Origin: Agrobacterium sp. AGB01
GTDB taxonomy: Bacteria; Pseudomonadota; Alphaproteobacteria; Rhizobiales; Rhizobiaceae
Assembly (NCBI RefSeq): GCF_014851585.1
Contig: NZ_JACVAB010000001.1
Span: forward strand, 1,389,669 to 1,453,668
Reading direction: 5' to 3'
Length of the DNA: 64,000 bases
Part shown: positions 16,424-25,623 of the stretch, piece by piece
Position numbering within the stretch: position 1 is the first letter of the stretch
How the letters are laid out: the number at the start of each line of letters is the position of its first letter
Notes under the pieces: generated by a model
Seen by the model: only the letters and a program-made list of their open reading frames with translations
Databases searched by the model: none
Told to the model about the DNA's origin: nothing
Program-made: the position numbers and the translations under genes

Positions 16424-19400
16424 ATGGCGAATAACAAGTTCAGTGACTCGATCGACGAGACTGCTTTTCAGGCGCTGGAGGATGCCCTCCAGAGTGGCAA
16501 ATCTGAAGCAGATGCACAGCCTCGGAGACGATCGACGCCAAAGTCCTCGGAGGCTAAAGTGCCCGACACGTCCAGAAAGCCGGTAGCAGACCCTGCGCCG
16601 CGTACTGCCGCTGAACAGAACAGAGCATCGGGGCTTGAGGCCGCCAATGACGGTTCCAAGCGCAATCCGGTTGCTCTTTTGAAGTCGCTGGAAAGCACAT
16701 CCATTACATCTGCCATCCGCAACGCCACAATCGTCTCGATTGTCTGGGCGCTGTGCGGCCTGGCACTCGGTCAGGCCATCTACGGCAATCTGATCTGGGA
16801 AGCCGGCTCATTGGCAGAACTGTTTGCCATTCCGGGCATCATGGCCGTGTTTGTCGGCATTGTTGTTCCTGTCATTCTTTTCTACGCCTTTGCCATCATG
16901 ATGGCGCGTGCCCGCGACCTGCGTAACGCGGCCCGTTCGATGGCAGAAGTTGCTCTTCGTCTGGCAGAGCCGGAAACCGTTGCCGCTGACCGCATCATGT
17001 CGGTAGGGCAGGCGGTTCGCCGCGAAGTCTCCGCCATGAATGAGGGCATCGAGCGCACCATTGCCCGTGCGACAGAGCTGGAAACGCTCGTTCATTCCGA
17101 AGTGAATGCACTTGAGCGCAGCTATGCCGACAATGAACTGCGTGTTCGCAGCCTGGTCAGCGAGTTGTCTTCCGAGCGTGACGCCATCGTCAACCACGCC
17201 GAGCGCATCCGTGCATCGATCATCGGTGCGCAGGACGAGATCAAGGAAGAACTGTCGCTGGCTGGCGAAGAGCTGTCCATCCGTCTGGCAACAACTGGCG
17301 AAGCCTTTGCGTCGATGATCGACACCCGTTCGGCTGCTCTGCTTGAGAAGTCGCGTGTGACGACCGAAGCCATGGGCAGCCTGATTGCTGCCAAGACCGA
17401 CAATCTGCTCAAGGCGCTGCACACATCCGGCACCAGCCTTGCCAATGAATTCGACATGCGCCTGCACAACCTCACCTCGACCATGTCGGACCGCGGCGGT
17501 GTGTTGCTGGAGCAGTTTGCGACGCAGGCTTCGACACTGGATGCCGGCGCTGAAAAGCTCAATTCCGCAATTGAAGAGCGCACACGCCTTCTCAACGAAG
17601 TGCTGACATCGCGCACCAAGGAATTGTCCGATAATCTCAACCGTGGCGAAGAGGCGATTGCCGGTTCGCTGGACACCGTTCTCAACAAGTTGGGTGAGAC
17701 CCTTGACGAGCGCGGTCTGTCGTTCCGCAAGAGCTTGCAGTCCACGGCTGACGACGCAATCATGGATCTCGATCTGCGTTCGGGTCTGTTTGAAGAGCGC
17801 CTTCAGGCAACGGTTGGTCAGGTCAACTCGGCCTTTGACGAGCGCGTTGCAGAATTTGCCAGCGCGTTTGATCGTCGCGCCGGTTCGCTCGACAGCAAGC
17901 TTATGGAAAGCCTTGCCCGTATCAACGAGGCTGTTGCCGGCGGTTCCGATGCCATCGACGGTATCTTGAGCTCCAGCATTGATCGTCTCGGCTCTGCCCT
18001 GACGGACCAGTCCTTCGCTCTGGCGACGGCACTCGGCACCGGTCAGGAAATGCTCGAAAACGCTCTTGATGAGCGTAGCCGCGAACTCACCAATGCCGTT
18101 GCATCGCGCACCCAGGAAATCACCACGGCGCTTGGCGATACGCATGAACGTATCGACAGCATCATGGCAGAGCGCAGCGGTGCATTGTTCAATGCCCTGT
18201 CTGCCAGCCAGAACCGTTTTGACGAAACGCTTGCGCACCGCTCCGAAGCCATCACCAATTCGTTGTCTGGCGCTCCAGAGCGCATGGCTGAAATTCTCGA
18301 TGCCAAGGCCGCAGAAATTACCAATGCTGTTGCCGATATCGAACAGCGTCTTGCTGCTGCTCTCGAAGGTCGCTCCACAGCCATTGCCGAGACACTGGAA
18401 GAGAAGGCCAACTACATCACCAGCGCAGTTGCCGGTGTTGAAGAGCGCCTGTCCAACACGCTGGATGATGCTTCCATGGCGATTTCGCTGTCGCTGGAAA
18501 GCCGCACCTCGTTCCTCGCGGATACCGTGTCTGATGCCCAGCAGCGCATTGCCTCGACACTGGATGGTGCTTCGTCTTCGATGACCAACGCTCTGGAAAG
18601 CCGCACGGCCTACCTGACCGAAGCGGTTGCCGACGCCGAACAGCGCCTGTCGAACAAGCTGGACGACGCATCCATGTCGATGCAGCTGTCGCTGGAAAAC
18701 CGCACATCCTTCCTAGCCGACGCCGTCTCCGATGCCGAGCAGCGCCTTGCCTCGACACTGGATGGCGCCTCGACTTCGATTACCAGCGCGTTGGAAAGCC
18801 GCACGGCTCACCTTACGGATGCAGTCACGGATGTTGAACAGCGTCTGGCCAGCACGCTTGAGGGTGCATCGTCTTCGATCACCAACACGCTGGAAAGCCG
18901 CGCGGCTTACCTGACCGACGCCGTTTCGGATGTCGAACAGCGTCTGGCCAACAAGCTTGATGACGCCTCCATGTCGATAGCCATGTCGCTGGAAACCCGC
19001 ACATCGATCTTTGCAGAGACGGTATCTGACGCTGAACAGCGCATTGCCAGCACGCTGGATGGCGCGTCGTCGTCGATTTCCACGGCGCTGGATAACAAGA
19101 CGACCTACCTCGAAAACGCGGTTGCCGGTGTCGAACACCGCCTGACGTCGTCGCTCGAGCAGACGTCTTCGGCAATCCTCGGTTCTCTGGAAGAGCGCGC
19201 CGCTGTCATCTCCGGTTCGGTCATCAACGTCGAGCAGCGTCTTGCCGACACGCTCGAGGGATCTTCGGCCAATATTTCCGGCATGCTGTCCGGCAAGGTC
19301 AACGAGATCAGCAATGTTGTCACCGGCATCGAACATCGCCTGGTCAACACGCTCGACGACAAGTCGGCTGTTATTGCTGAAACACTCGGCCGTAACGCTG

Positions 19401-22400
19401 CCCATATCGAAAACACCGTCGGTTCTGCGGCCCACCTCATCGACAGCAAGGTCAGCGATGCTGCCTACCTGATCGAAAACAGCGTGACGGGTGCAGCCAA
19501 CCGTATCGAAAACGCCATCGACGGCGGCACCGACAAGTTTGCCGGCACGCTGGAAACTGGTGTCTCGCGTCTCGAGCACAGCCTCACCGCGTCGCACGAG
19601 CAGATCAAGAACACCTTCGAGAAGCGTCACGCCGATATCGAGCAGACTTTGACATCTGCCGGCGACAAGCTGAACGAGATGTTGTCCGATCAGGCCGTAT
19701 CCATCGGCACCAGCGTTGCGTCGAGCACCGGCATGCTGGAAATGTCTCTGGAAGGTCAGCAGGAAGCCCTGCAGCGCGTTATCGCCTCTAGCAGCGCCGA
19801 TCTTGAAGCAAGACTGCGCAACGGCATTGGTGAAATCGCTGGCAAGATCAGCGATGCGGCAGGGGACATCAGCACTGCTGCAGACAGCCTGTCTTCGCGC
19901 ATCGACCAGTCGGTCAGCGGCGTTGCTGGCCAGCTCGGTGAAACCGAAGCCCGTCTTGGCCAGTCGCTTGACGGCTTCCAGCACCGCATCAAGACAGACC
20001 TGCACAATGTCAGCGCAACGATTGATGAGGCCAATGCCCGCATCTCCGAGACGCTCGGCACACGGTCGCAGGAATTCGTCAGCGCCGGCAGCGAAGTTGC
20101 CGATCGCATTTCGTCGACCATCGACGAGCGCCTTGGCACCATGGACCGCGCGCTGAACATCGGTCTTGAAAACGTCAACCGCACCATCGGAGAAAAAGCC
20201 ACAGGCCTTGCCATGACACTGCGTGAAGCCGTGACTTCGGCCACCCAGAGCATGGACGGTGAAGCACTGCGGTCTGCTGAACTTTTGGCCAGAACCGGCA
20301 GCGAGTTTGCCTCGAACCTGCGTGACACGGTTTCCACCACCACCCGGAACATGGATGGCGAAGCCCAGCGCTCGGCAGAACTGCTGGCCAGAACCGGTAG
20401 CGAGTTTGCCTCGACCCTGCGTGACACGGTCTCGACCGCCACCCAGGACATCGGTGGCGAAGCCCAGCGCTCGGCAGAACTTCTGGCCAGAACCGGTAGC
20501 GAGTTTGCCTCGACCCTGCGTGACACGGTCTCTGCCGCCACGCAGAACATCGACGGCGAAGCGCAGCGCTCGGCAGAACTGCTGGCCAGAACCAGCAGCG
20601 ACTTTGCCCAGCAGGTGCAGGCTCGTAATGCTGAGTTCACACAGGCCATCGAAAACCGGTCTGGCGATATCATCAACCGTATTTCGGATGCGCAGAACCG
20701 CTTGTCCTCGCAGGCTGCTGCCGTTGCCCAGACCTTCTCCGAAGCTGGCAATGTCATCGTCAACAAGGTTGCCGAAGCAGAAACCGTGGTCCGTTCGCAG
20801 GCCGACACCATTGCCCAGAGCCTGTCGCAGGTTGAGGCAGCACTTGGTGCCCGTGGCGACTCCATCCGCACGACGCTGGATGAGCGCACCCGCGAACTGA
20901 ACTCGATGCTGGCCAGCCGTTCGGCAGAACTGTCGCGCCTGATCGAAGAAAAGGCCCGTCCGGTCGTCGACCAGTATGCCAATATCGGTCAGGAAGCTGC
21001 CCACCGCATCGCAACGGCTGCCCGTGAGGGTGTTGAAACCCTGTCGGCCACCAATGCAGAAATCGTCAACCGCGTTGAACAGACGGTTGGTGATCTCAAT
21101 GCTGCGGTCAGCAAGGCCTCGGTAGACTTCAACGCGGCCGACCAGTCGCTCGGTCAGACGGCAAACCGTTTTGCCGAAACCGCTTCGCAGGCTGCCGACA
21201 TGGTGTCCAGCTCCAGCCGTCTGCTGGAAGGAAAGATCGACCGTCTGTCGAACATTTCCGGCCAGACACTGTCGCAGGTTGCCGGTATCGTTGGCCGCTT
21301 CGAAGAGCACTCCAAGATGCTGTCGCAGGCATCCGATCTGCTTGGCGCGGCCCAGTCCAGCCTGGTTGGCACATTGGAAGAGCGTCAGGATACCCTGCGC
21401 AGTCTGGCCGTAAGTCTGGTTAAGCGCTCCGAAGACATTGAAGCCACAATGCGCAACGTTGTTTCTTCCGTTGAAGGAACAATGGGCCATGCGGAAGAAC
21501 GTGCAGCCAATGTTGCCGGTACGCTGAAAGAAAACCTGTCGTCTTCGTTCTCTGAAGTTGGCAAGGCTCTGGACGAGACCGAACAGCGTGCCCAGTCTGC
21601 CGCTGCCAATATGCGCAACGCTCTGCTCTCTGCCGGTCAGGAAGCAAACCGTTCCATCGAAACGACACTTGCGGACGCTCGCAAGTACTCGGACGAACTG
21701 GCCGACCGTGTTCGCAGCGGCGTCCAGTCCTCGCTGGCCGACGTCGACAGCATCCTTGGCAGCGCCACGGAGAAGTCCACGGCTGCCGCTGCAAACGTCC
21801 GCGAAACACTGCGTCTGGCAGTCGAGGAGGCGGTAACCCGCTTCTCCGGCGCAACCGACGAGATCCGTCGCTCCAGCCAGGACATTCGCAAGGAACTGGA
21901 TTCGACCCGTGCAGAACTGAAGCGTGGTGCTTTCGATCTGCCGGAAGAAGCCAAGGAAAGTGCGGCCGCCATGCGTCGCGCCGTAGCAGAACAGATCAAG
22001 GCGCTGCAGGACATTTCGCAGCTGGTCGGCCGCTCGGCCACCCAGATGGAAATCTCCCACGCACGCCCTGCAGCCCCGCAGCCGGCTCCACAGGCACCAC
22101 AGCAGGCCGCCCCACAGGTTGAGCGTCGTGTTGCAGAACCTGCACCACAGCCAGGTGTCGCGGCTCCTGTAGCGCGTGCACCACAGCCACAGACCCCGGC
22201 ACAGGTGCTGGGCACCTCTGCTGGTCTGCGTGGCAGCCTGCCACTGGAAACCGCAAAGCCGCAGGTCCAGACAACAACCATCTCTGACCAGGCCGTACAG
22301 CGTGGTGAGGGCAGTGGCTGGATCAGCGATCTGCTGCGTGGTGCATCACGTGACCCGAATGCGCAGCAGGCAACCGCTGCTGTCCGTCAGCCGGCAACCC

Positions 22401-22807
22401 GTCCGGCTGCTGAAACAGTACCAAGCCAGGCATCGCGCAACACAGACAACCGCAATCCGCGTCACATGGTGGAATCGCTCAATTCCCTGTCTGTCGATAT
22501 CGCCCGTGCTATTGACCACGATGCCTCGGTAGACCTGTGGCGCCGTTACCAGCGCGGTGAGCGCGACGTGTTCACCAGACGCCTCTACACGCTGAAGGGT
22601 CAGCAGACCTTTGATGAAATCAAGCGCAAGTATGAGCGTGAATCCGAGTTCAGAACTGCGGTTGACCGTTACATCGCTGACTTCGAAAAGCTGCTGGCCG
22701 ACGTTGCGAAGACAGACCGTGACCGCACTGTAACCCAGTCCTACCTCACGTCTGACACCGGCAAGGTCTACACGATGCTGGCCCACGCCGCCGGTCGTTT
22801 CAATTGA
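16424..22807 (+). CDS. gpr: Giant coiled-coil polar growth protein, GPR (Growth Pole Ring) homologue
   Basis: A 2,127-residue protein. Residues 1-95 are polar and disordered. Two membrane spans lie at about 102-122 and 134-160, followed by some 1,850 residues of helical, apolipoprotein-like sequence. A Pro/Gln linker (about 1885-1925) and a conserved C-terminal domain with DLWRRYQRGERDVFTRRLYT complete it. Residues 635-997 form 11 tandem 33-residue repeats and 1279-1377 three near-identical ones. Length, topology and repeats match Agrobacterium GPR, which forms a ring at the growing pole and is needed for rod shape in budding Rhizobiales. It was probably anchored in the inner membrane with the coiled coil in the cytoplasm. 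The gene is monocistronic with its own terminator. Confidence 0.88.
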   Translation: MANNKFSDSIDETAFQALEDALQSGKSEADAQPRRRSTPKSSEAKVPDTSRKPVADPAPRTAAEQNRASGLEAANDGSKRNPVALLKSLESTSITSAIRNATIVSIVWALCGLALGQAIYGNLIWEAGSLAELFAIPGIMAVFVGIVVPVILFYAFAIMMARARDLRNAARSMAEVALRLAEPETVAADRIMSVGQAVRREVSAMNEGIERTIARATELETLVHSEVNALERSYADNELRVRSLVSELSSERDAIVNHAERIRASIIGAQDEIKEELSLAGEELSIRLATTGEAFASMIDTRSAALLEKSRVTTEAMGSLIAAKTDNLLKALHTSGTSLANEFDMRLHNLTSTMSDRGGVLLEQFATQASTLDAGAEKLNSAIEERTRLLNEVLTSRTKELSDNLNRGEEAIAGSLDTVLNKLGETLDERGLSFRKSLQSTADDAIMDLDLRSGLFEERLQATVGQVNSAFDERVAEFASAFDRRAGSLDSKLMESLARINEAVAGGSDAIDGILSSSIDRLGSALTDQSFALATALGTGQEMLENALDERSRELTNAVASRTQEITTALGDTHERIDSIMAERSGALFNALSASQNRFDETLAHRSEAITNSLSGAPERMAEILDAKAAEITNAVADIEQRLAAALEGRSTAIAETLEEKANYITSAVAGVEERLSNTLDDASMAISLSLESRTSFLADTVSDAQQRIASTLDGASSSMTNALESRTAYLTEAVADAEQRLSNKLDDASMSMQLSLENRTSFLADAVSDAEQRLASTLDGASTSITSALESRTAHLTDAVTDVEQRLASTLEGASSSITNTLESRAAYLTDAVSDVEQRLANKLDDASMSIAMSLETRTSIFAETVSDAEQRIASTLDGASSSISTALDNKTTYLENAVAGVEHRLTSSLEQTSSAILGSLEERAAVISGSVINVEQRLADTLEGSSANISGMLSGKVNEISNVVTGIEHRLVNTLDDKSAVIAETLGRNAAHIENTVGSAAHLIDSKVSDAAYLIENSVTGAANRIENAIDGGTDKFAGTLETGVSRLEHSLTASHEQIKNTFEKRHADIEQTLTSAGDKLNEMLSDQAVSIGTSVASSTGMLEMSLEGQQEALQRVIASSSADLEARLRNGIGEIAGKISDAAGDISTAADSLSSRIDQSVSGVAGQLGETEARLGQSLDGFQHRIKTDLHNVSATIDEANARISETLGTRSQEFVSAGSEVADRISSTIDERLGTMDRALNIGLENVNRTIGEKATGLAMTLREAVTSATQSMDGEALRSAELLARTGSEFASNLRDTVSTTTRNMDGEAQRSAELLARTGSEFASTLRDTVSTATQDIGGEAQRSAELLARTGSEFASTLRDTVSAATQNIDGEAQRSAELLARTSSDFAQQVQARNAEFTQAIENRSGDIINRISDAQNRLSSQAAAVAQTFSEAGNVIVNKVAEAETVVRSQADTIAQSLSQVEAALGARGDSIRTTLDERTRELNSMLASRSAELSRLIEEKARPVVDQYANIGQEAAHRIATAAREGVETLSATNAEIVNRVEQTVGDLNAAVSKASVDFNAADQSLGQTANRFAETASQAADMVSSSSRLLEGKIDRLSNISGQTLSQVAGIVGRFEEHSKMLSQASDLLGAAQSSLVGTLEERQDTLRSLAVSLVKRSEDIEATMRNVVSSVEGTMGHAEERAANVAGTLKENLSSSFSEVGKALDETEQRAQSAAANMRNALLSAGQEANRSIETTLADARKYSDELADRVRSGVQSSLADVDSILGSATEKSTAAAANVRETLRLAVEEAVTRFSGATDEIRRSSQDIRKELDSTRAELKRGAFDLPEEAKESAAAMRRAVAEQIKALQDISQLVGRSATQMEISHARPAAPQPAPQAPQQAAPQVERRVAEPAPQPGVAAPVARAPQPQTPAQVLGTSAGLRGSLPLETAKPQVQTTTISDQAVQRGEGSGWISDLLRGASRDPNAQQATAAVRQPATRPAAETVPSQASRNTDNRNPRHMVESLNSLSVDIARAIDHDASVDLWRRYQRGERDVFTRRLYTLKGQQTFDEIKRKYERESEFRTAVDRYIADFEKLLADVAKTDRDRTVTQSYLTSDTGKVYTMLAHAAGRFN
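18326..19414 (+). repeat. Eleven 99-base tandem units within gpr
   Basis: Each unit encodes 33 residues of the form AV-D-EQRLA-TLD-AS-SI, then -LE-RT-YL-D. The units are diverged in DNA but nearly invariant in length. 33 residues are three 11-residue helical turns (11/3 periodicity), the repeat length of apolipoprotein-like helices. Confidence 0.85.
20258..20554 (+). repeat. Three highly similar 99-base tandem repeats within gpr
   Basis: Units 20258-20356, 20357-20455 and 20456-20554 encode GEAQRSAELLARTGSEFAS followed by TLRDTVSTATQ-like sequence; units 2 and 3 differ by only a few bases. A partial fourth unit follows to about 20610. Such recent duplication makes copy number prone to change. 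Confidence 0.9.
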
Positions 22808-22840
22808 TCTGAAAAGTATGTAAGCACTTACGTACATTGA

Positions 22841-22870
22841 AAACCGCCCCAATCGGGGCGGTTTTTGTTT
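22841..22870 (+). terminator. Intrinsic terminator of gpr
   Basis: AAACCGCCCC, loop aatc, GGGGCGGTTT, continuing as TTTGTTT. It lies 33 bases after the gpr stop codon. Confidence 0.9.
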
Positions 22871-22998
22871 GTGCAGGGGGTAAAATCCTTAAGCCTTGGG
22901 CGTTCCAACGCAAAGGAATGCCCCATCGATGTTGCCATTTGGGTCTTGGCTTTCTATGTGTGGAACAAACGATAACCCGCAATTTCTGGATTTCTGAC

Positions 22999-23319
22999 AT
23001 GACAAAACTGACAATCGTTGCTTTCGACGGCGCGGCCATTGACCTTGATGTTGCAGACGGCTCCACCGTTATGGAAAACGCCGTGCGCAATTCTGTTCCT
23101 GGCATTGACGCCGAATGTGGCGGTGCCTGCGCCTGTGCTACCTGTCATGTCTATGTCGATGATGAGTGGGCCGAACGTGTTGGCCCGCCAGAAGCGATGG
23201 AAGAGGATATGCTGGACTTTGCATTCGACGTGCGTCCAACCTCGCGTCTGTCCTGTCAGATCAAGATGAGCGCCGAGCTGGATGGCCTCATCGTACACGT
23301 GCCTGAGCGCCAGGGCTGA
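22999..23319 (+). CDS. 2Fe-2S ferredoxin, adrenodoxin type
   Basis: A 106-residue electron carrier with the cluster cysteines in the pattern C-x5-C-x2-C (CGGACACATC, about 40-49) and a fourth cysteine in RLSCQI. This is typical of the bacterial ISC/adrenodoxin branch. The acidic segment [15 protein letters not shown] is the usual reductase or P450 docking face. There is no isc cluster nearby, so its partner is not evident. I placed the start at ATG 22999; the longer frame upstream runs through the gpr terminator and shows no homology. Confidence 0.9.
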
Positions 23320-23397
23320 TATTGCCAGCTGCCGGCACCCGTTACAGGCACCATCTGCCAACAAACGCGCCGGTCATTTTCCGAATTCGGTTTCGGC

Positions 23398-23614
23398 CAA
23401 AAAAAGCCTCGCTCTCCGCATGAAGAGCGAGGCCAGGCGGGCATGCCGCCACGAGGCGAGGGAGGATGACACCTGTGGTTCTGTGGACACGCCAGGGAAC
23501 TCGAACGCTGCTAACAACTTGGAAATTTGCCGAACGGATGGGTATCGCATAACCACATGTTGGCGCGACCCTAATCCATTGAAATCTGAAGTCTTTCCCA
23601 CTCCGTATTTAAGT
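23398..23614 (-). ncRNA. Candidate small RNA with its own promoter and terminator, family not recognised
   Basis: On the minus strand a promoter-like pair, TTGGCG (23649-23644) and TAATTA (23626-23621) with 17-base spacing, precedes about 215 bases that end in a strong terminator. The interior folds. A 42-base hairpin (23577-23536) has stacked arms GGAT/ATCC, GGGT/ACCC, CGC/GCG and CCA/TGG, and a second GC-rich region lies before the terminator. The only ORF across it (23661 to 23374) runs through the terminator stem and resembles nothing, so an RNA product is more likely. I checked by eye for signature motifs of RNase P RNA, SRP RNA and tmRNA and found none; 6S RNA would fit the size, but I cannot confirm it. 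Confidence 0.55.
23399..23433 (-). terminator. Strong terminator of the candidate small RNA
   Basis: On the minus strand: GCCTCGCTCT, eight-base loop, AGAGCGAGGC, then TTTTTTT. The stem is ten perfect base pairs. No minus-strand protein gene ends here, which is the main reason to propose an RNA gene. Confidence 0.85.
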
Positions 23615-23871
23615 TTTTTATAATTAAAAACACTGATTCGCCACGCCAAGAAATCAATCATAAAAGCGTGGGATCAACCTTAGGTGAGCAGGGTTGGCCG
23701 GGCGGCCTTGACGGCCATCGCCGGGCCAAATCACGAGAAAACATCACGTAACGGAAGTTTGTTGCCGAACGCACATTGATGCAGCCGCGCGGTGCCAGCG
23801 GTTAGTTGGGCTGTCAAAGCGCCAAGGGAGGCGTCATAAGCAATGTTTTGGCATGGCAGGGCCAAACCTCG

Positions 23872-23912
23872 CCAGCGTCATCCTCGCCCTTGTGGCGAGG
23901 ATCTAAGCCATC
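23872..23912 (-). repeat. Half copy of repeat family A
   Basis: On the minus strand it reads ggcttagatcctcgccacaa followed by gggcgaggatgacgctgg, the right half of family A. It lies in the 712-base gap 23320-24031, which otherwise holds the candidate RNA and a GC-rich hairpin (GGCCGGGCG...CGCCGGGCC, 23696-23727) of unknown role. Confidence 0.6.
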
Positions 23913-24031
23913 AGCCAAATCCGCAGCGCCGCAAGCGAAATGCCTGAGCGGCACCAACCGCAGCCTCGAATCAAACCATCCGTCTGCAACATGTGCGGAA
24001 AAACGGCCCAACCGCTCGAGGAAAACAGCGA

Positions 24032-24652
24032 TCAGTTGTCACGCGCCTTGAGACGGTGGCTGAGCAGGCGCATCATGCGTGCATCGAAGTTCTTGCTTTC
24101 GATGCGATCAAAACGCTGCTGGTCTCTGTCATGTTCGGCCATGACCTTCTGCGTTGTGTCGGCCACTTGGGCTTGCAGTGCTTCACAGGTCTTTTGCGGA
24201 CGAAGACCTTTCAATCTTTTTTCCAGCATCCGGCCATAGCTGCGCGAAATCTCGGCGTGGCGTTCTTCATGCCGTTTGATATCGGCCGACAGGGTGTCCC
24301 AGATCAGCGCCAGATCGGCGCTGGTGCGTGCGCGGTTTTTCCAGCGCGGCAGCAATATCTTGGTGTGCAGGGTGACCTTCACTTCGCCAATATTGCAGCG
24401 GCCGTCCTTTTCCACATAGGTCAGCTCACCGCCGAACTTGATTTCGGTGGCACCGGGATGTCTGGCACCTGTGGATTGGGTCAGTGGGCCGCGATTGGAC
24501 AATTCACGGTCGAGATCTGCCGCAGTTTTGCCCCCGATCTGGAAGTAGGAGATCGATTTCTGAAACTGGGTTTCCGCCTGTGTCGAATGCGTGAATGCAA
24601 ACAGAAAAGCCGATGCGGCAACTGCACGCATGAGACCGGGTATAAAATTCAT
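24032..24652 (-). CDS. Exported DUF922 putative Zn-dependent protease
   Basis: A 206-residue protein with a signal peptide (RAVAASAFLFAFTHSTQA). Its DUF922 domain has TYVEKDGRCNIGEVKVTL and IKRHEERHAEISRSYGRML. The HEERH sequence is of the HExxH zinc-metallopeptidase type. The conserved cysteine pair (GRCNIG, KTCEAL) suits a periplasmic location. The ATG at 24652 was chosen because the signal peptide then has a normal length; no proteolytic substrate is known for the family. Divergent from folP. Confidence 0.8.
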   Translation of the reverse strand: MNFIPGLMRAVAASAFLFAFTHSTQAETQFQKSISYFQIGGKTAADLDRELSNRGPLTQSTGARHPGATEIKFGGELTYVEKDGRCNIGEVKVTLHTKILLPRWKNRARTSADLALIWDTLSADIKRHEERHAEISRSYGRMLEKRLKGLRPQKTCEALQAQVADTTQKVMAEHDRDQQRFDRIESKNFDARMMRLLSHRLKARDN

Positions 24653-24753
24653 GTGCCAGACTGCCGGTTGAACTCGTGAAACGATTGCTGCATAGGCGGA
24701 GGTGATACAATACAAATTGGCGTGACTCTTTGTAATATCGAAAGGTCCTGACT

Positions 24754-25623
24754 GTGGTGATAACAGCCAACAACAAGGTGTGGCAAGCCGCTCATGGCCG
24801 AAGCCTGAAACTGGATAGGCGTGGCCGTATTATGGCCATCGTCAATGCTACGCCGGATTCCTTCTCCGATGGTGGCCAATTCAACACAGTGGATGCCGCC
24901 TTCAGTCATGCCATGATTTGCCTGTCGCAAGGCGCCGACATCATCGATATCGGTGGCGAATCCACCCGTCCGGATGCCAGTGTCGTTGGCGCTGCAGAAG
25001 AGCAGGACAGGGTGTTGCCACTGATTGAAAAGCTGGCACAAGAAACCGATGCACTGCTGTCCATCGATACCTACCGGGCTGAAACGGCTCGCCTTGCCGT
25101 TGCGGCCGGTGCCCATATCATCAATGATGTCTGGGGGTTGCAGAAGGATCCTGATATGGCCTCAGTGGTCGCGGAGACCGGCGCCGGTGTCTGCATCATG
25201 CACACAGGACGTGAGCGCCAGAAGCTGGCTGACGTGATTGATGACCAGATTCATTTTCTGAAACAATCGCTACAATCCGCTGAAAAGGCAGGCATAAACC
25301 GCGATGCCATCGTGCTGGACCCCGGTTTTGGTTTTGCCAAGAACACCGAGGAGAATATGGCGCTGATGGCAAGGTTTGGTGAGTTGCAGGCGCTTGGCCT
25401 GCCGATTCTGGCCGGCACATCGCGCAAACGTTTTATTGGCGCTGTCACCGGGCGGGAGGTCGCCAGCGACCGCGACGCCGGTACCGCCGCCACCACCGCC
25501 TTGCTGCGCATGGCAGGTGCGGTGGTGTTTCGCGTTCACAATGTTGCCGTCAACCGTGACGCGCTGGCGATGGCAGATGCAATGCTTGCTGCGCGCAAGG
25601 TCCAATCAGGAGAAGAAGAATGA
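24754..25623 (+). CDS. folP: Dihydropteroate synthase
   Basis: Joins 6-hydroxymethyl-dihydropterin diphosphate to p-aminobenzoate in folate synthesis and is the target of sulfonamides. The 289-residue TIM barrel shows MAIVNATPDSFSDGG (27-41), IDIGGESTRP, SIDTYRAE, IINDVWG, LDPGFGFAKN, AGTSRKRFIG and, near the C-terminus, VFRVHNV. The start is GTG. It overlaps folB by four bases, so folP-folB-folK is a translationally coupled operon. Confidence 0.95.
   Translation: MVITANNKVWQAAHGRSLKLDRRGRIMAIVNATPDSFSDGGQFNTVDAAFSHAMICLSQGADIIDIGGESTRPDASVVGAAEEQDRVLPLIEKLAQETDALLSIDTYRAETARLAVAAGAHIINDVWGLQKDPDMASVVAETGAGVCIMHTGRERQKLADVIDDQIHFLKQSLQSAEKAGINRDAIVLDPGFGFAKNTEENMALMARFGELQALGLPILAGTSRKRFIGAVTGREVASDRDAGTAATTALLRMAGAVVFRVHNVAVNRDALAMADAMLAARKVQSGEEE

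Follow-up and report, generated by a model that had tools for sequence, protein, structure and literature searches.

A divergent member of the Atu_C7 small RNA family between DUF922 and ferredoxin genes of Agrobacterium sp. AGB01

Introduction

C7 of Agrobacterium tumefaciens is, according to the accessible part of PMC4201532, a trans-encoded sRNA with a minus-strand gene between atu1350 and atu1351. The same text gives a 20-fold enrichment with Hfq in minimal medium and a Northern blot signal, which is lower without Hfq in that medium. No functional study of Atu_C7 was found in the literature searched. Judging from its name, the Rfam family Atu_C7 is presumably this RNA and, again from the family name, the neighbourhood of DUF922 and ferredoxin genes described below presumably corresponds to atu1350/atu1351 of strain C58. 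Two further groups of Rhizobiales RNAs are of interest here: SmelA075 and SmelA099, sRNA families with CCUCCUCCC anti-Shine-Dalgarno loops (in the accessible part of PMC3927594), and AbcR1 and AbcR2, which are, in the portions of text available, Hfq-dependent trans-acting sRNAs regulating ABC transporters. EcpR1 (SmelC291), compared by description, was discarded as the same RNA, with no link found in the accessible part of PMC4414408.

The window analysed here is a stretch of 64,000 nucleotides from Agrobacterium sp. AGB01. An earlier note, made from its letters, had proposed an unannotated small RNA gene on the minus strand beside the ferredoxin gene.

Results

Identity of the locus

In a covariance-model search, Rfam family RF02501 (Atu_C7, "Rhizobiales sRNA Atu_C7") matches the minus strand of the window at 23401-23547 with 48.3 bits, 3.3 bits above the gathering score of 45 bits, and the alignment spans the full model length, positions 1-157. 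R1, a covariance model made for this study with 49 sequences, matches 23399-23508 with 83.2 bits, the window sequence being among its own members, and finds no second match in the window at E<=1. No Rfam family besides Atu_C7 matches the region at its own gathering score. The Rfam search suggested in the earlier note thus returned this family above its cut-off and nothing for 6S RNA, which is rejected with no match in 23330-23760 at E<=1. Hrs1, sX13 and Pseudomon-1 are likewise rejected; their matches are sub-threshold and overlap the terminator and C-rich stretches. Elsewhere in the window, on the plus strand, Rfam models match a Cobalamin riboswitch (RF00174, 2966-3150, 109.6 bits) and the rpsB sRNA family (RF01815, 44547-44656, 47.6 bits, cut-off 40), and an open reading frame of 2127 amino acids with a highly repetitive translation occupies 16424-22807.

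The Rfam match, the gene order, covarying helices and a promoter box together strongly support a small RNA gene on the minus strand of this gap, as far as sequence comparison can. The proposal of an sRNA gene is upheld, with the correction that the RNA is already known as a kind: by its model match it is a member of RF02501, and a divergent one is now placed in a known family. The predicted transcript covers 23398..23614 of the minus strand; its end is given by a run of T's, and transcription in Agrobacterium sp. AGB01 would, from the position of the promoter, start near 23612-23614.

Conserved core and terminator

The predicted RNA consists of a leader, a conserved core (23431..23503) and an intrinsic terminator with a U tail (23398..23434). 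In the consensus, an outer helix P1 of eight pairs (GGCGUGUC with GGCAUGCC) encloses a hairpin P2 of five pairs, the loop of which is CCUCCC (UCCUCCCUC in the window), and the terminator follows. The enclosing helix, the inner hairpin with its CCUCCCUC loop and the terminator are all found in the window, from the model alignments and covariation. The conserved part of Atu_C7 amounts to about 105 nt, compared with 157 in the Rfam model, of which the first 50 or so positions are not conserved beyond the A. tumefaciens-like group.

The alignment used (A1) was made from 49 sequences out of a set of 63, L002-L064, in which L031 is represented by the window. It omits ten near-duplicates and four further loci: L059, L062 and L063, whose terminator hairpin is a different one, and L064, which has lost the loop. 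With these four in place, the counts for pairing and loop would probably be lower. In A1, 97.1% of cells are paired (89.9 in shuffles), 12 of the 21 pairs show double changes (8.5 in shuffles), there are 91 double-change cells (23.5 in shuffles) and the covariation score is 0.357 (0.212 in shuffles), the last three values being reached by 0/500 shuffles, a control that related sequences alone can exceed. When the partners are slid against each other, no more than 17 double-change cells remain and 31-53% of cells are paired; this second control keeps the relatedness, but is biased toward a structure derived from the same sequences. The number of further pair types (26, against 26.1 in shuffles; 339/500 reach 26) is not above the shuffles. 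Most of the covariation signal comes from P1, in which seven of the eight pairs have double changes. The check for covariation in relatives proposed in the earlier note has in this way yielded covarying helices.

In folding calculations, core and terminator together (23398-23508) beat 199/200 shuffles with a z-score of -3.0; the P1/P2 part alone is not above them (z 0.57). The sequence CCTCCY is present in the P2 region in 47/49 aligned rows and is unpaired in the consensus structure, giving the RNA a conserved, unpaired C-rich loop, the feature looked for in an anti-Shine-Dalgarno sRNA. In the Atu_C7 copy of L064 the loop is replaced, and this copy is perhaps degenerate or re-targeted; in genome G010 (L261) the loop sequence is altered.

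The terminator hairpin (23434-23405) has 13 pairs, eight of them G-C, and a four-base loop, with T's after it. The terminator described in the earlier note is present here, as are the roughly 215 bases separating it from the promoter-like hexamers, and its stem is kept in the 49 aligned sequences. Four loci (L059, L062, L063 and L261 of G010) retain the core sequence with the terminator hairpin swapped for an unrelated one, with R1 scores of 42.6-63.8 bits for the first three and 43.8 bits for G010. Because these loci keep the core despite the unrelated terminator hairpin, it is the core that is maintained.

Leader

The leader (23504..23614, about 110 nt) is not conserved: upstream of the core, groups of relatives do not align with one another. 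It contains the 42-base hairpin (23536-23577) to which the earlier note drew attention. This hairpin has a folding energy of -13.8 kcal/mol and a z-score of -1.6, matched by 13/200 shuffles; the z-score of the whole leader fold is -0.1, and that of the full-length RNA -2.0, matched by 6/200 shuffles. In the minimum-energy fold of the full-length RNA the hairpin is absent, and the 5' arm of P1 is taken up by pairing with the leader. P1 accordingly is a minority conformation in the full-length window fold, with a probability of 0.08-0.14. A fold with the core enforced is 1.4 kcal/mol worse, leader and core energy differences being within the error of the folding method, and in it the 42-base hairpin forms beside the core. 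With 40, 20 or 0 leader bases the probability of P1 is 0.66-0.96; with 60 it is 0.01. The leader therefore competes with P1, and whether the loop is exposed hinges on the actual 5' end, or on processing.

As a conserved element the 42-base hairpin is rejected, with the leader unaligned between groups, the hairpin missing from the minimum-energy fold and a z-score only weakly better than shuffles. What stands of it is its formation in a fold that is 1.4 kcal/mol less stable than the best, and of the conservation anticipated for hairpins and terminator, the terminator stem is kept in the aligned sequences and this hairpin is not. Since its formation is compatible with that of the core, the hairpin could still have a role specific to the window; we speculate from the folding models that it might hold the leader away from the core in this species, and that the RNA may be processed. 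The distance from promoter box to core is 154 nt in the window, 73-107 nt in 36/37 other loci of the genus and 199 nt in L059, so the leader is longer here than in 36 of the 37 loci measured, and longer still in L059. On the plus strand, a sigma-70-like site (TTCCCA-18-TATAAT, 10/12) lies within the leader at 23595-23624.

Promoter region

The minus-strand hexamers TTGGCG (23649-23644) and TAATTA (23626-23621), 17 bases apart, are present as the earlier note had it, but as a sigma-70 pair they match the consensus poorly and are not listed by the promoter scan. Support for a promoter comes instead from a conserved box, TGATTTCTTGGCGTGG (23641..23656, minus strand), which overlaps the TTGGCG hexamer and has 12 columns kept in the genus. 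Across the genus the box has the form TGANTTCTNGNCGTGG, of which the window copy (23656-23641) is an exact instance. In an ungapped arrangement of the loci on the box, each of the 12 fixed positions of TGANTTCTNGNCNTGG is kept in 33-36 of 36 loci; this count takes the best box match in each of 36 of the 38 genus loci, L260 and L261 having been added later for the GANTC and distance counts. An A+T-rich presumed -10 region, TAATTATAA (23618..23626, minus strand), is in the same place as the presumed -10 of relatives, with different letters.

After the box there is a variable spacer, followed by GACTC at +28 in 32/36 genus loci; a GANTC at this position is present in 34/38 when L260 and L261 are included. 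In the window the site is displaced to +17, where it reads GAATC (23635..23639, minus strand), a GANTC site of CcrM type by inference. In most of the A. tumefaciens-like loci (L002-L021), a near-perfect palindrome around GACATGACGT-A/T-ACGTCATGTC is located just upstream of the box, in the gap that separates the C7 promoter from the DUF922 gene, and has the look of an operator.

Outside the genus, a relaxed box, TGANTTCTNGNNRTRG, occurs with at most two mismatches in 15/27 loci, compared with 2.2% of shuffles, and 12 loci are without it; the box-to-core distance in the 15 is 79-214 nt. GACTC or GAATC at +26 to +28 is found in 7/27 loci (L039, L040, L043, L044, L047, L051 and L056), three of which have boxes with three mismatches, within chance, and several of which are close relatives. 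Exact TTGANTTCTNGNCGTGG has a single match in its own genome, the Atu_C7 locus itself. A regulon of the box was sought there and none found: matches at up to two mismatches number 28, compared with 48 for the reversed-pattern control.

Gene order and distribution

Upstream of the sRNA gene and on the same strand lies the gene for a DUF922 protein (24032..24652, minus; Pfam PF06037, 147.7 bits), and convergent with it the gene for a 2Fe-2S ferredoxin (22999..23319, plus; Pfam PF00111, 44.8 bits). A same-strand DUF922 gene is upstream in 57/57 loci and a convergent ferredoxin gene is inside the fetched flank in 53/57, one of the loci in both counts being that of the window; both genes were also found in 6/6 further loci and then in 2/2 more. 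The order DUF922 - sRNA - ferredoxin, a mark of membership set here rather than by Rfam, is that of the window. Sequence comparison thus shows the family membership of the locus and the conservation of the P1/P2/terminator architecture, the loop, this gene order and the upstream box.

With RF02501 and R1 together, Atu_C7 is present in 38/38 genus genomes examined. RF02501 alone, at E<=0.001, finds it in 36/61 genomes, all of them in the genus (36/37 there), 30 being over the cut-off; R1 recovers G010, missed by RF02501, and the later-added G521, both of them syntenic. In the family, RF02501 gives 39/199 genomes and 20/109 genera at E<=0.001, 34 genomes over the cut-off, and R1 53/199 genomes and 33/109 genera. 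Neighbour genes, in 20 loci fetched, divide true from doubtful R1 matches at about 37 bits: at 37.1 bits or more, ferredoxin is present in 10/10 and DUF922 in 9/10 loci, and at 32.6 bits or less, none of ten family genomes has DUF922, ferredoxin or folP as a neighbour. With a limit of at least 37 bits, the range of Atu_C7 within Rhizobiaceae is widened to 43/199 genomes and 23/109 genera.

Across the order, R1 finds matches at E<=0.001 in 34/297 genomes, 27 of them from other families, with a best score of 41 bits. None of the 15 flanks checked (13 from other families and two from its own, L184 being at a contig end) contains DUF922, ferredoxin or folP, and members outside Rhizobiaceae are unsupported in the 13 of 27 other-family genomes checked. 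A pattern scan of named genomes, which is a lower bound with a pattern that excludes the A. tumefaciens-like form, returned at least 33 stretches. Ten of these have a DUF922 neighbour, nine of them ferredoxin as well, and come from Ciceribacter, Shinella, Neorhizobium, Rhizobium, one MAG with the label Arenimonas and a Rhizobiales isolate; the remaining 23 resemble chance matches.

Mechanism and candidate target

The loop UCCUCCCUC is complementary to GAGGGAGGA. Sites of the form GAGGGAGG-N4-10-ATG number 16 in its own genome, compared with one in the reversed control, and 117 in six relatives, compared with 16; this excess mostly reflects ordinary Shine-Dalgarno sequences. We consider it probable that the window carries an Atu_C7 family gene whose RNA would be bound by Hfq and would, through pairing of the exposed UCCUCCCUC loop with the Shine-Dalgarno regions of target mRNAs, stop their translation.

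One start region, GAGGGAGGAGACTC-ATG, complementary to the loop across nine bases, recurs as an identical string in 6/7 genomes. It belongs to a gene for an ABC-type extracellular solute-binding protein (G000:C11:394996-396228, L085/L229; Pfam SBP_bac_1), for which NCBIfam carbohydrate-binding models score far under their own cut-offs. The gene is found in 37/38 genus genomes, and 30 of the 37 orthologues were read: the exact GAGGGAGGAGACTC-ATG string is present in 29/30, G017 having a shorter one with GAGGGAGGAG retained, and variation is almost absent over the 26 or so bases ahead of the ATG and greater farther upstream. The mRNA is a candidate target by complementarity, picked after seeing the data, when the 16 matches in its own genome were read as open reading frames and only the recurring string was pursued. 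An anti-Shine-Dalgarno loop fits many mRNAs, and the conservation of the start region may have other causes.

Discussion

The statement of the earlier note that no minus-strand protein gene could need the terminator is wrong, since the DUF922 gene (24032-24652) is directly upstream on the same strand. The region might mainly be the 3' UTR of the DUF922 mRNA with its terminator, any sRNA arising by processing and having no promoter of its own. The constant position of the gene in all 57 loci agrees with this, as does the terminator scan, which lists no further minus-strand terminator in 22000-25000. The DUF922 gene and the core have, however, the box TGANTTCTNGNCGTGG between them across the genus, and outside it 15/27 loci have its relaxed form, against 2.2% of shuffles; in the window the Rfam match begins 484 nt beyond the DUF922 stop codon, and the accessible text of PMC4201532 describes C7 of A. 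tumefaciens as trans-encoded. We find a mere tail of the DUF922 mRNA quite unlikely, and a distinct RNA a better explanation than use of the terminator by DUF922 alone.

We consider it very improbable that the RNA works chiefly in cis, influencing the ferredoxin mRNA as a convergent or antisense transcript. In most loci ferredoxin is the convergent next gene, and the scan lists no plus-strand terminator directly after it, but there is no ferredoxin match within the flank in 4/57 loci, in L042, L051, L178 and L179 the gene is at a distance of several hundred bases or more, and the best conserved unpaired part of the RNA, a loop resembling an anti-Shine-Dalgarno sequence, suggests that it acts in trans. 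That the region encodes a small protein, instead of or besides the RNA, is hardly credible. An uninterrupted ATG reading frame of 95 amino acids (23374-23661) does run across it; this frame has no Pfam or NCBIfam match, tblastn finds it in one of 56 other loci (L029, 31 amino acids, over the RNA core) and in none of six further loci, and changes in the core preserve base pairs. The absence of a credible open reading frame asserted earlier holds, with the partial match in L029 the one found in a relative.

For the preferred reading, a separate sRNA acting in trans, the conserved promoter box, the GANTC in the promoters of relatives and the one genus-wide candidate target are new leads. The methylation of GANTC by CcrM in A. 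tumefaciens is treated in PMC11514494, in the accessible part of which no mention of C7 was found; a role of CcrM at the C7 promoter is what we infer from the site. It is conceivable, if rather unlikely, that Atu_C7 is coupled to the cell cycle, with the box bound by an activator and CcrM methylation of the GANTC site lying between box and -10, perhaps via GcrA, timing bursts of the RNA after passage of the replication fork, so that sugar uptake would be tied to the cell cycle by silencing of the ABC-type solute-binding protein genus-wide. If this were true, the species of the window, with its moved GANTC and a longer leader able to lock or free the core, would be a natural test case.

When the predicted RNA is compared with known systems, AbcR1 and AbcR2 resemble it, as far as their available descriptions go, in that the candidate target here is likewise an ABC-type solute-binding protein; it is a different RNA in a different place, and the region matches Atu_C7 alone at the gathering score. 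With SmelA075 and SmelA099, compared by description in the accessible part of PMC3927594, it shares a hairpin loop able to pair with Shine-Dalgarno sequences, but where these have three and four such hairpins, the window RNA has one, within an enclosing helix. The closest system is RF02501 and C7 of A. tumefaciens: although the window copy is divergent, scoring 48.3 bits against up to 197 in relatives, the core, the order of the helices and the type of terminator are common to both, and the match extends over the full length of the model.
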